A model generated the notes under the pieces. It saw nothing but the letters and a program-made list of their open reading frames with translations. It had not been told where the DNA came from and searched no databases. A stretch of 49,009 nt of DNA from Opitutus sp. GAS368. Its GTDB lineage: Bacteria; Verrucomicrobiota; Verrucomicrobiia; Opitutales; Opitutaceae. Shown here piece after piece: positions 31,160 through 49,009 of this stretch; position 1 is the first letter of the stretch, and the number at the start of each line of letters is the position of its first letter. The position numbers and the translations under genes are program-made. Where the stretch lies: assembly GCA_945903545.1 (NCBI GenBank), contig CAMDOO010000014.1:1-49009 (forward strand). Reading direction: 5' to 3'.

Positions 31160-31215
31160 TGTAGCCGGGGTCGTTGACCCCGGTGCCGGAACCGGCCTCA
31201 ACGAGGCCGGCTACA
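31160..31215. repeat. REPIN-like element of the TGTAGCCGG family
   Basis: TGTAGCCGGGGTCGTTGACC continues into two perfect hairpins (CCGGGGTC/GACCCCGG and CCGGCCTC/GAGGCCGG) and ends GGCCGGCTACA. The same family occurs inside the WD40 gene at 46639-46690. Confidence 0.85.
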
Positions 31216-45789: not shown

Positions 45790-46893
45790 TTAATCAGCCT
45801 TCAGCACGTACACCGCGCCCTTCTCGCTCCCGATGGCGAGCAGGCGGTCATCCGGCGACCAGACCAGCTTGGTGGCGGGGGCCGGCATCTTCACGGTGGC
45901 ACGCAGGGGAGTTTTGCGCTCCGGGCTCCAAAGCATGACGACCCCGTCCTGCGAAGCCGTGGCCAGCAGGCCGTGGGCATGCTGGAATGCGACCGCGCAC
46001 ACCGGCGCATCATGGGGAAACATCGCCGGCTCGCGGCCCTCCGGTCCCTCGCCGGAGCAGTCCCAAATGCAGGCGTCGCGCCCGCCGCCGGTCGCGAGCC
46101 AGCGCGAGGCCTGGTCAAAGGACAGGTGCTTCACCTTGGTCTCGTAGCCGCTCATCTGCAGCTCCTCATTCGCCGCCGGGACCCAGAGGTGCACGCTCGG
46201 ATCCTGGTTGCCCGAGACGAGCCACTTGCCGTCGGGCGACCACACCAGGGCGTGAATGCCATTGTTGTAGACGTACTCCTTCTTCGCCGAGAAATCGCCG
46301 GTATCCCAAAGACAGACCCCGCCGAAGTAGGCGACGGCCAGCACGGGCACCGACCCGGTGGACTGTGGGCGGTGGGCGGTGGGCGGACACCAAGCGAAAG
46401 CAGTGATCGTCTTGGGCGCGGGTTTGAACTGATGCCGGATCGAGGCGTCGGGGTTGATCAACGCGAGCTTCCGGCCAGCTGCGGCCGCCAGGACCGATCC
46501 GCCCTGCGCAGCCGGTGCCCAGGCCAGGTGCTCCACCCAATCGGTGCCAAGCTTGGCCGTGGCGACATGCTGGCCCGCGACCGTGTCCCAAAGTTTCACC
46601 GCGCCATCCTGCCCGCCGGTGGCCAGGATCTGCATCGCTGTAGCCGGGCTCGGTGAGCCCGCAATCCCGGGGTCACCGACCCCGGCTGCAAATCCAGCTG
46701 CTGGCGCGAACGCGATGGCGTTGGTGCCGTTCTCATGCCCCAACAATAGGTGACGCTTCGCGCCGTCAGCCGAGGCGAAGAGCCAGACCGGGCCGGCGGC
46801 CGACGCCGCGGCCAGCAGGCTGCCATCGGGCGACCATGCGAGATCGATGACATAGTCGTCGAGCGCCGCGGCCCAGTGCTTGATCAATTGCAT
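45790..46893 (-). CDS. WD40-repeat protein with an in-frame palindromic insertion
   Basis: A 367-residue cytoplasmic beta-propeller. About seven blades are visible (VIDLAWSPDGSLLAAAS, ATGGQDGAVKLWDT, ALVWSPDGKWLVSG, LATGGGRDACIWDC, LLATASQDGVVMLWSP, LVWSPDDRLLAIGSEKGAVY). WD40 propellers serve as binding platforms; partner unknown. In blade 2 residues 68-85 (FAAGVGDPGIAGSPSPAT) are encoded by a palindromic element (46639-46690) that keeps the frame. A second oddity is the GGGCGGT tandem repeat near 46367-46388, encoding the TAHRPQSTG stretch. It lies downstream of the COG0523 gene on the same strand. Confidence 0.88.
   Translation of the reverse strand: MQLIKHWAAALDDYVIDLAWSPDGSLLAAASAAGPVWLFASADGAKRHLLLGHENGTNAIAFAPAAGFAAGVGDPGIAGSPSPATAMQILATGGQDGAVKLWDTVAGQHVATAKLGTDWVEHLAWAPAAQGGSVLAAAAGRKLALINPDASIRHQFKPAPKTITAFAWCPPTAHRPQSTGSVPVLAVAYFGGVCLWDTGDFSAKKEYVYNNGIHALVWSPDGKWLVSGNQDPSVHLWVPAANEELQMSGYETKVKHLSFDQASRWLATGGGRDACIWDCSGEGPEGREPAMFPHDAPVCAVAFQHAHGLLATASQDGVVMLWSPERKTPLRATVKMPAPATKLVWSPDDRLLAIGSEKGAVYVLKAD
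46639..46690. repeat. REPIN-like element inside the WD40 coding sequence
   Basis: TGTAGCCGGGCTCGGTGAGC continues to two hairpins (CGGGCTC/GAGCCCG and CCGGGGTC/GACCCCGG) and GGCTGCA. Same family and layout as 31160-31215; length and phase keep the host frame open. Confidence 0.85.
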
Positions 46894-46944
46894 GCGCGGC
46901 AGGTTGGACAGGGCGTGGAGCCGCGCAAGCGCACAGGGTCAAAA

Positions 46945-47006
46945 GGTAGGGACGGCTGTCCCCAGCCGTCCTTCGATCAAGGTCGTGTGGGACACACGAC
47001 CCTACC
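46945..47006. repeat. Paired GTAG element between the COG0523 and WD40 genes
   Basis: AAAAGGTAGGGACGGCTGTC at the left (from 46941), GTGTGGGACACACGACCC and TACC at the right. The AAAA on the left gives a U-run for minus-strand transcripts, so it can terminate the COG0523 gene, whose stop is five bases away. Confidence 0.8.
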
Positions 47007-47011
47007 TTGTC

Positions 47012-48421
47012 TTAAGCTAGGCAGGCCTTGAACGCCTCCGTCAGCGCGGTGCGGTCGAGATTCTTGCCGATGAACACGAGGGTGTTCTGGCGCGGGTCGG
47101 CACCCCATTCGCGGTCGAACTTCGCGTCGAAAAGCATGTGCACGCCTTGGAAAACCAGGCGCTTGTTGCTGCCCTTCACGCTCAGCACGCCCTTCATCCG
47201 GTAAATGTCGCCGCCCTTGGTGCGGAGCAGATCGCTGATCCAGTTGTTCAGCTGCTTGCCGTCGAGGTCGCCTGGCAGGCTGATGCCGACCGAGGTCACG
47301 TCGTCGTTGTGCTCGTGCGCCGCATGGAAGTCCTCCTGCCACACGGGCTTCACGACGTCGCCGTTCACGTGAATGTGGAGCGGGTCGTGCCCGCACGACT
47401 CGAACACGAGGAACGTGCCGGCGTGGGCGACATCCAGCACGAATTTGCCGTCGCCGTCCTTGAGCAGCAACCGGTGGAGCGTCGCGCCCGGGGCCACCGT
47501 CTCGCCGTCCTTCACGCGCGATTCCCAGTCGGCGAAGCTCAGCACCGCAGCGTTGAGGGAGATCGTCCGGTCGCGCTCCTCCAGCGACTTCACCGGCATG
47601 ATCACGACATCCAGTTCGTTCGGATTGCCGTGGTGGTGATGGTGGTCGTGGCCCTCGTGACCATGATCATGGCCCTCATGCCCGTCGTCATGATCGTGCT
47701 CCATGTGGCCGATCACCAACTCGTGCTGACCCGCGGGCAGCGGGTAAGCACCGGCCCACTCGAACGGGTACTCGGGCTCGAGGAACTTCGGGTCGAGCTC
47801 GCTGGCGCGCTCGAGGTTGAAGCCGCCGACGTTGAGGACCTGGTCCAGGGGCAGCGCGCAGTTCTGCGTGCGGTGGATCTTCGCGACCCTGTTGATGTGG
47901 TGGATCCGGTCTTCGAGCGCATCGAGGTCGGCCGGGGTGACGAGATCGGTCTTGTTGAGCAGGATGACATCCGCAAAGGCCAGCTGCTTGACCGACTCGT
48001 CATCGGCCGCGAGGTGCTGGATCACGTGCTTGGCGTCGACGACGGTGACGATGGCGTCGAGCCGGTAGTGCTGCTTGATCTCGTCGTCGGTGAAAAAGGT
48101 CTGCGCGACCGGCGCGGGATTCGCGAGGCCGGTGGTCTCGATCAGGATGCCGTCGAGCTTGTCCTTGCGCTTGAGCAGGCGCCCGAGGATGCGGATGAGA
48201 TCGCCGCGCACGGAGCAGCAGATGCACCCGTTGTTCATCTCGAACAGCTCCTCCTCGCTGGTGATGACGAGCTGGTTGTCGACGCCGACCTCGCCGAACT
48301 CGTTCTCGATCACCGCGAGTTTCTTGCCGTGGTTCTCCGTGAGGATCCGGTTCAGGAGGGTGGTTTTGCCGGCGCCAAGGAAGCCGGTGAGGACGGTGAC
48401 GGGGATCATGCGGTTGACCAT
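47012..48421 (-). CDS. COG0523/CobW-type G3E GTPase, His-rich metallochaperone
   Basis: A 469-residue protein. Walker [10 protein letters not shown] (13-21), [11 protein letters not shown], the metal-binding CICC at 66-69 ([13 protein letters not shown]), [10 protein letters not shown], and NKTDL for guanine. A His/Asp-rich segment of about 25 residues (starting [20 protein letters not shown] near 255) precedes the C-terminal CobW domain. Known relatives deliver zinc (ZNG1/YjiA type) or cobalt. No Zur box or metal transporter is visible nearby. Start: ATG of [10 protein letters not shown]; an internal ATG four codons on is possible. Divergent from the DUF1016 gene. Confidence 0.92.
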
Positions 48422-48541
48422 TGCGGAAGGCGAAAGGCGGATTGGCAAGACAGGGCTGGAGATGCGCCAATCTCCGTGCCTTGCCGACCGCGTCAAATCC
48501 AAGACCGGAAGAGGAAAGCACAACTTTTCGCCCACCAGATA

Positions 48542-48585
48542 CGATTAGGTGAAAGATCGGCGACGTTTTCCTCGTTATGGGAGGT
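48542..48585 (+). promoter_or_regulatory. Upstream region of the DUF1016 gene, shared with the brnTA locus
   Basis: Together with the first 20 coding bases this matches 23796-23859 at 50 of 64 positions. GGGAGGT directly before the ATG is one of the few good Shine-Dalgarno sequences in the window. On the opposite side, GGAGAT/ATCTCC (near 48455-48472) could be a hairpin in the COG0523 leader. Confidence 0.65.
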
Positions 48586-49009
48586 ATGGACGAAATCATG
48601 CCGTTTTCCCGGGACTACACCGCGCTGCTGACCGACATCAAGCAGCGCATCCGCACCGCCCAGATACGGACCGCGATGGCGGGGAACACCAGCCTGCTCA
48701 TGCTCTACTGGGAGATCGGCGGCGTGCTCGCGAAACGCCAGAAAAAGGAGGGCTGGGGTGCAAGGGTGCTGCCGAGACTGGCGGCGGATTTGCACAGCAC
48801 TTTGCCGGAAGTGAAGGGCTTCTCCGTCCGCAACCTCAAGCGCATGGTGCAGTTTTTCCACGAGTATCCCGCGCTTTTCGCAATTGGGCCACAGGCTGTG
48901 GCCCAATTGACCAATCGTTCCCACCGAGCGGCAATTTCGCAACCGGCGGTTGCGAAATTGGAAAACGATCCGAGTTCCGGCAACGAAAGCCGGCCGTTCG
49001 TGGCTGTGT
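48586..49009 (+). CDS. DUF1016/YhcG-type PDDEXK nuclease-like protein (partial)
   Basis: Runs off the right edge with 141 codons visible. The N-terminal DUF1016 domain is clear: YTALLTDIKQRIRTAQIRTA, then SLLMLYWEIGGVLAKRQ, GWGARVLPRLAADLHSTLPE and FSVRNLKRMVQFFHEYPALF. The PDDEXK catalytic half would lie beyond the window. Members occur as accessory genes beside restriction systems or transposons; function mostly unproven. After residue 98 the sequence departs from the usual WSH-type continuation and encodes two similar stretches, AIGPQAVAQL and AISQPAVAKL, each inside a DNA palindrome (48881-48909, 48932-48960). ATG chosen for the Shine-Dalgarno. Confidence 0.85.
   Translation, partial: MDEIMPFSRDYTALLTDIKQRIRTAQIRTAMAGNTSLLMLYWEIGGVLAKRQKKEGWGARVLPRLAADLHSTLPEVKGFSVRNLKRMVQFFHEYPALFAIGPQAVAQLTNRSHRAAISQPAVAKLENDPSSGNESRPFVAV
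48881..48960 (+). repeat. Two adjacent palindromes within the DUF1016 coding region
   Basis: First: CAATTGGGCCACAG (48881-48894) with exact complement at 48896-48909. Second: CAATTTCGCAACC (48932-48944) with exact complement at 48948-48960. Both are bounded by CAATT and AATTG but have different inner sequence. Confidence 0.85.

Follow-up and report, generated by a model that had tools for sequence, protein, structure and literature searches.

An in-frame GTAG-class REPIN in a WD40 gene of Opitutus sp. GAS368: a tolerated insertion in a variable loop of a predicted propeller

Introduction

How a mobile palindromic DNA element can come to be translated as part of a protein, and whether the peptide that it encodes has acquired a function there, is the question raised by a WD40 gene of Opitutus sp. 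GAS368. The gene lies in the window analyzed here, i.e., the whole stretch of 49,009 nucleotides of contig CAMDOO010000014.1 (assembly GCA_945903545.1). A previous reading of this DNA made from its letters, designated the sequence-only reading below, had proposed that a REP element was domesticated in frame as a surface loop of the WD40 protein, in a manner comparable to the Rickettsia palindromic elements (RPEs). GTAG REPs inside genes have been reported by Di Nocera et al. (2013; PMC3733652), Opitutus terrae being the species with the most copies. The in-gene copies of O. terrae described there are often dimers, lie in frame in unrelated genes that include uvrA and DNA ligase, and give rise to inserts of 20-30 residues. 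Flexible linkers or loops were suggested as the positions of the inserts, and as the reason for their tolerance (PMC3733652).

Materials and Methods

The host genome of the window (G000) is a 3.08-Mb draft of 122 contigs, in which the window is contig C14. Matches to the WD40 protein were found in 33 of 57 genomes and provided 28 usable loci (L012-L039), to which seven further distinct WD40 loci were added from the 12 that were returned by a contig search. A partial row (L040), two distant rows (L041 and L053), and four duplicates (L042, L044, L046, and L052, derived from the same genomes as G002, G019, G030, and G001) were left out, and L038, which has an internal stop, was left out of the tree and of the loop alignment. 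In the latter, 31 inter-strand loops were measured on one alignment of 34 orthologues, and a gain was defined as at least 8 residues over the shortest form. Parsing of loops by pattern in 35 rows resolved the AB loops of blade 2, blade 3, and blade 4 in 34, 21, and 32 rows, respectively; the counts given for the blade-3 and blade-4 loops were taken from the 34-orthologue alignment.

The survey of REP dimers, defined by two hairpins and at most one mismatch across the two ends, covered stretches sampled from five genomes (G000, 805 kb; G019, 222 kb; G026, 238 kb; G005, 340 kb; G022, 168 kb; overlaps included). With the exception of the window and the first 20 in G000, the stretches were picked around pattern hits, i.e., not at random. 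A looser scan, with 59 hits in the host genome (28 in genes, mostly without the family core) and 24 hits in G019 (10 in genes), was discarded and superseded by this stricter definition. The other proteins with inserts were named by reading their sequences, and Pfam was used for UvrA and the dihydrolipoamide dehydrogenase-like protein only.

Results

The WD40 insert belongs to a multi-copy GTAG REPIN family

The WD40 gene is located at positions 45790-46893 on the minus strand and encodes 367 amino acids. The element within it, at 46639-46690, is 52 nt long (1 mod 3) as read on the WD40 coding strand (minus) and consists, by the two-hairpin definition, of two inverted GTAG-type REPs, which is the structure of a REPIN. 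Several statements of the sequence-only reading were borne out at this point: the palindrome is wholly contained in the open frame 45790-46893 on the minus strand, this frame runs through it uninterrupted, and the codons of residues 68-85 (46639-46692, minus strand) read FAAGVGDPGIAGSPSPAT upon translation. Folded as single-stranded DNA, the element reached -22.7 kcal/mol (z -5.43), and none of 200 shuffles performed as well. The outer ends of the two hairpins differ, reading TGTAGC and TGCAGC, one tag being changed to GCAG; a GYAG tag is permitted in some GTAG REP families (PMC3733652).

The 52-mer is unique in its own genome at up to 3 mismatches, and the 12-mer core of its family, GTAGCCGGGGTC, is present there in 54 copies versus none for the reversed control, which identifies the family as multi-copy. 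A second member of the WD40-insert family, 56 nt long and not inside a called gene, is located at 31160-31215 of the window. The nonamer TGTAGCCGG has 140 matches in the genome versus 91 for its control, and by itself says little because it often represents ordinary codons. Among the TGTAGC[CT]GG sites in the sampled part of the genome, 31 of 82 are inside called genes, most of them without the hairpins of the element. Counting of nonamers, which gave 28 matches in the window at one mismatch or fewer versus 9.67 expected, was dropped, the in-gene nonamers being mostly plain codons.

REPs of the window's family flank a RAYT gene in the relative G005 and none in the window's genome. The latter has three Y1_Tnp genes, none of which carries the window's REPIN family in the flanks examined, and two of them, the RAYT-type genes L010 and L011 (on C18 and C46), are flanked by dimers of a different GTAG family, TGTAGGAGC. 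One of the four Y1_Tnp matches in G005, a frame of 190 codons, is immediately preceded by the window's REPIN and immediately followed by a single REP of the family; in G019 and G025 no Y1_Tnp match was found. Because a family-flanked RAYT is lacking in the own genome, REPIN denotes the two-REP structure throughout this text, and mobilization by a RAYT transposase is what we infer from the relative G005.

The insert is predicted to be a disordered loop of an apparently eight-bladed propeller

The protein matches the WD40 profile PF00400 (110.7 bits, cut-off 27) and has a predicted propeller fold, which together assign it to the WD40 propellers. An AlphaFold2 model based on 12 sequences had a mean pLDDT of 85.9 and a pTM of 0.85, and only residues 67-85 and 174-179 scored below 50. 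As the sequence-only reading had anticipated, the model places the insert in a loop, namely the blade-2 AB loop (residues 63-88; 46630-46707, minus strand) between strands 57-62 and 89-94, and residues 67-85 are modeled as a disordered segment connecting strands A and B of this blade. The N-terminus of the protein is common to its orthologues. The 32 strands of the model fit eight blades, and the protein is, as predicted, apparently an eight-bladed propeller. The top Foldseek match by E-value was a prokaryotic WD40 domain (TMq 0.63), and the designed eight-bladed proteins Ika8 and Tako8 matched at TMq 0.74-0.76, and ODA16 and Rsa4, which are eight-bladed, at 0.77-0.83.

The other segment of low confidence (residues 174-179) belongs to the blade-4 AB loop (residues 169-183; 46345-46389, minus strand), which is one of the three length-variable loops described below. 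With its short tandem repeat (GGGCGGTGGGCGGTGGGCGG, plus strand), it seems to be a second loop of the protein that is growing by repeats.

The insertion looks recent

In the tree of WD40 orthologues, in which 15 of 31 inner branches are weakly supported, the window's gene groups with that of sister species G001 (support 100/97) and then with that of G002 (100/98), all of one genus. The blade-2 AB loop has 6 residues in G002 (NAIAFAPGSGALASGGQDG) and is an unrelated stretch of 29 residues in G001. The core GTAGCCGGGGTC has 54 exact copies in the window's genome, 1 in G001, and 3 in G002, the latter two numbers being lower bounds because these drafts are 92% and 75% complete.

An orthologue carrying the peptide without the palindrome was looked for, and FAAGVGDPGIAGSPSPAT occurs in none of the 33 other parsed blade-2 AB loops; G022, missed by the loop pattern, is by eye also without it. 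The expectation that an alignment would reveal some 18 residues absent elsewhere thus held for the peptide itself, and was too simple for the loop: 17 of the 33 have 4-7 residues at this position and 16 have a different stretch of 12-47 residues, so that 17 of all 34 parsed rows fall in each length class. Judged from these comparisons, the insertion of the REPIN in the WD40 gene looks recent. Net insert sizes vary among sites.

The codons on both sides of the insert are under purifying selection, averaged over branches. Before the insert (codons 1-62) the NG86 dN/dS was 0.11 relative to G001 and 0.066 relative to G002, and after it (codons 90-367) 0.095 and 0.088, respectively. These values average the time before and after the insertion, and therefore indicate that the gene matters and say nothing of the importance of the loop.

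Three loops of the WD40 protein receive different inserts

Gains of at least 8 residues were confined to three of the 31 inter-strand loops, i.e., the AB loops of blade 2 (15 of 34 orthologues), blade 3 (19 of 34), and blade 4 (6 of 34); the other 28 loops had no such gain, and 23 of them were constant in length. The long blade-2 loops are of diverse kinds. A fold z of -2.79 or lower was found for 7 of the 17, and the proposition that all long loops are palindromes was ruled out by the other 10, which are not clearly palindromic. The loop of G032 contains another REP family (GTGGGAGGGGCTTTACGCCCC; fold z -10.6), with 16 matches in the G032 genome versus none in that of the window at one mismatch or fewer, and the loop of L043 is an inverted repeat of GGAGACAGG/CCTGTCTCC (z -6.8). 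In G019, G026, G017, and G018, peptides resembling QKSEVRSQ..SDLRPLTSDL are encoded by 7-nt repeats in inverted order, of which the fold z was -3.4, -4.6, -1.6, and -2.8, respectively. With up to 2 mismatches allowed, the heptamer pattern TCTGACCTCTGACCTCTGA matched 23 of the 57 genomes, including G019, G026, and G017; G018, where it had no matches versus 8 for the control, was assigned to this family by its peptide only.

The window's REPIN family recurs in the blade-3 AB loop of G019 (VAGVVDPGPGSPSPAT) and G005 (VAGVADPGPGSASPAT). As these genomes belong to different clades (support 99/99 and 95/95), the other members of which have no REPIN in blade 3, independent insertions are the simplest reading of these sequences. 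In Cephaloticoccus and its relatives, the blade-3 loop of L047 contains the left half of a REPIN, those of L049 and L051 look decayed, and that of L050 has no REPIN remnant; the loops of L047, L049, and L051 are possibly an old insertion that is eroding while the loop stays, and their candidate half or decayed REPINs were left out of the counts.

As judged from the loop sequences, different inserts have thus been taken up repeatedly by the same three loops of one protein in different genera. The presence of unrelated element families in the same few loops suggests that the tolerance of the protein, rather than the target choice of one enzyme, filters the insertions that survive.

In-gene copies are nearly all of one length class

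The non-random survey yielded 113 dimers (G000, 22; G019, 18; G026, 16; G005, 41; G022, 16), of which 18 were inside genes called by our own gene finder (1, 5, 3, 9, and 0, respectively). The window copy was added by hand, because the finder had started the WD40 gene 3' of the element and the orthologues show this start to be wrong, which brings the in-gene total to 19, in four of the five sampled genomes. About 93 in-gene dimers would be expected if placement ignored genes, and 94 of the 113 were outside; in the window's own genome, 20 of the 22 sampled dimers were outside genes with the window copy counted as inside.

The length was 1 mod 3 in 18 of the 19 in-gene copies versus 45 of the 94 others (Fisher p 9e-5), with genes called by our own finder and copies sharing one site in different genera counted separately. 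The difference remained when the 101 strict family members were considered (18 of 19 versus 44 of 82; p 6e-4) and upon permutation within genomes (p 6e-4). In G026, for example, the commonest length outside genes is 74 and the three in-gene copies measure 70, 61, and 64 nt. The only in-gene copy of another length class, from an RND-type gene of G005, has 50 nt. The left arm of all 19 in-gene copies is read in the same frame, which was rejected as a sign of convergence: 184 of the 202 element strands can be read through at offset 1, and 127 have no other open frame, so that the shared frame is mostly forced. In the usual reading of its family, offset 1 alone is open throughout the window's element.

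Other proteins with in-frame inserts

Inserts were recognized by sequence reading in UvrA (G019, G026, and G005, at the same site), a TrmH-type methyltransferase (G000 and G005, at the same site), and proteins read as a RecD2-like helicase, dihydrolipoamide dehydrogenase, isocitrate dehydrogenase, RlmN, dihydropteroate synthase, an RND transporter, DNA ligase, and, in G005, the product of a CobW-type gene. Insert-free relatives confirmed the sites in UvrA and TrmH. At the UvrA site, 23 of 30 loci were parsed, 18 with a form of 40 residues and three, with the REPIN, of 55-67 residues; at the TrmH site, 24 of 28 were parsed, 16 with a form of 37 residues and six with 54-66, an element being recognizable in three of these six (G000, G005, and G024). 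A constant net insertion of the element plus 2 nt was considered and failed: the TrmH of G000 fits (51 for 49) and the UvrA of G019 does not (45 for 49).

Discussion

Taken together, the data are very probably explained by the insertion of a GTAG-class REPIN in frame into an AB loop of a WD40 propeller, where it is tolerated, most likely as a near-neutral, disordered surface loop. The tolerated in-frame insertion is the well-supported part of this explanation. The REPIN would have been amplified in the window's species and not in the two sampled congeners, and its entry into the WD40 gene would most simply postdate the divergence from the sister species. The element may have survived because the frame that was read is the usual open one (T|GTA|GCC), because the downstream frame was kept, and because it fell in the blade-2 AB loop, which is among the three loops in which additional residues are tolerated. 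The product would then be a disordered surface loop of which near-neutrality is most likely. The mobilizer counts against this explanation, since none of the three Y1_Tnp genes of the genome is flanked by the WD40-insert family, and so do the 10 of 17 long blade-2 loops that are not clearly palindromic, the varying net insert sizes, and the draft state of G001 and G002, in which low copy numbers are lower bounds.

Domestication in the strict sense, in which the REPIN-encoded loop was recruited for a function, e.g., as a binding loop of the propeller, could account for the retention of both frame and palindrome, and for the confinement of the recurrent inserts to AB loops of three neighboring blades, as a specialized variable face might display. 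We consider it improbable, as the loop is unrelated in the sister species and absent in the congener, half of the parsed orthologues (17 of 34) have no insert in the blade-2 AB loop at all, and the model gives the insert no structure. The loop differs completely between nearest relatives, which tolerated cargo fits better, and the domestication proposed by the sequence-only reading, taken as an acquired function, is not supported; the element is more likely a near-neutral passenger than a domesticated part. Its strong fold, and the roles of REPs discussed in the literature, would also suit a palindrome kept for the DNA or RNA (an mRNA hairpin, or a site for gyrase or another protein) with an incidental peptide, but the relatives lack it at this site, which is in the early part of a single coding region, and the 94 of 113 family copies outside genes indicate no in-gene role, which makes this reading less probable still.

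An assembly error, by which the element was wrongly joined into the gene, comes to mind for a metagenome-type draft of 122 contigs with many family copies. It is highly improbable for a 52-mer that is below read length and has no second match at up to 3 mismatches, and in a frame that continues into conserved sequence on both sides; moreover, similar in-frame cases occur in the single-contig genome G005. That a GC-rich loop merely resembles a repeat by chance has in its favor that the nonamer is common in codons, as the 31 of 82 TGTAGC[CT]GG sites in called genes illustrate, and is contradicted by the family match of two hairpins and both ends and by a fold that no shuffle equaled, to the extent that its probability is close to nil. 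A tolerated insertion remains the preferred explanation.

The closest known system is that of the GTAG REPs of O. terrae, which share with the present case the family Opitutaceae, GTAG-tagged palindromes in frame in genes, and uvrA and DNA ligase as targets. In comparison with PMC3733652, the present case concerns another species and a WD40 gene; what it adds is a structure model of the protein, the length rule, congeners in the empty state, and a hot spot for several families. In the open-licence PMC literature searched, no report was recognized of a REP in a WD40 gene or of the length rule, and the supplement of PMC3733652 may list the WD40 gene of O. terrae. The WD40 insert is a clean further case of a phenomenon published for Opitutaceae, with a testable regularity around it.

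The comparison with RPEs is a fair one and has already been drawn in print (PMC3733652). RPEs are likewise short palindromic DNA in frame in unrelated protein genes (PMC10969869, PMC3733652), a pattern seen here in 19 in-gene copies from four of five sampled genomes. According to the sizes and classes given there, RPEs are about 150 bp or of the CGTC class (RPE-4 and RPE-6), whereas the WD40 element is a 52-nt GTAG-class pair from a different phylum, which resembles an RPE in how it works without being one. With the REPINs described by Bertels and Rainey (2011; PMC3116915) it shares the arrangement of two inverted REPs as a high-copy unit, and the RAYT gene of G005 lies between copies of the window's family. 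That paper stresses extragenic REPINs, and the window's genome has no RAYT flanked by the WD40-insert family.

The case offers a REPIN insertion that can be placed between sister species, with a structural reason for its tolerance, and a natural experiment in which three loops of one protein were hit by different elements in different genera. Whether selfish palindromes become parts of proteins is thereby a question that can be tested in a small protein, and a simple rule is suggested for the copies that are able to live in genes, i.e., a length of 1 mod 3 and one open frame. A bolder proposal, which we regard as rather unlikely, is that several unrelated families of mobile palindromes recurrently feed new protein loops in Opitutaceae, with the AB loops of blades 2-4 of the WD40 protein as a variable face renewed by one in-frame insertion after another, and with the eligible families set by their length modulo 3 and a single open frame.

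Proteins of Opitutaceae seem to be entered by several further palindrome families. In-frame repeat-like stretches were observed at a second UvrA site (L224-L233), e.g., GTGVPPV..HGRDARAT in the UvrA of G005, and in a DNA ligase (L189:2266-5337; GDATPSSR..GVAAPA). In the window, another palindrome with GTAG-like ends (GGTAGGGACGGCTGTCC ... GGACACACGACCCTACC) and 20-nt arms of 85% complementarity lies at 46943-47008, between the WD40 gene and a neighboring gene for a CobW-type GTPase (47012-48535; PF02492). The latter has a His-rich stretch, and in its G005 counterpart a REPIN of the window's family adjoins this stretch; by its position only, the GTPase is a candidate partner of the WD40 protein. 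Within a gene that starts at 48577 on the plus strand, a pair of perfect palindromes (48881-48909 and 48932-48960; 14-nt arms, 1-nt center) lies in frame and encodes FAIGPQAVAQLT and AAISQPAVAKLE; this pair is a second case of in-gene palindromes in the window.
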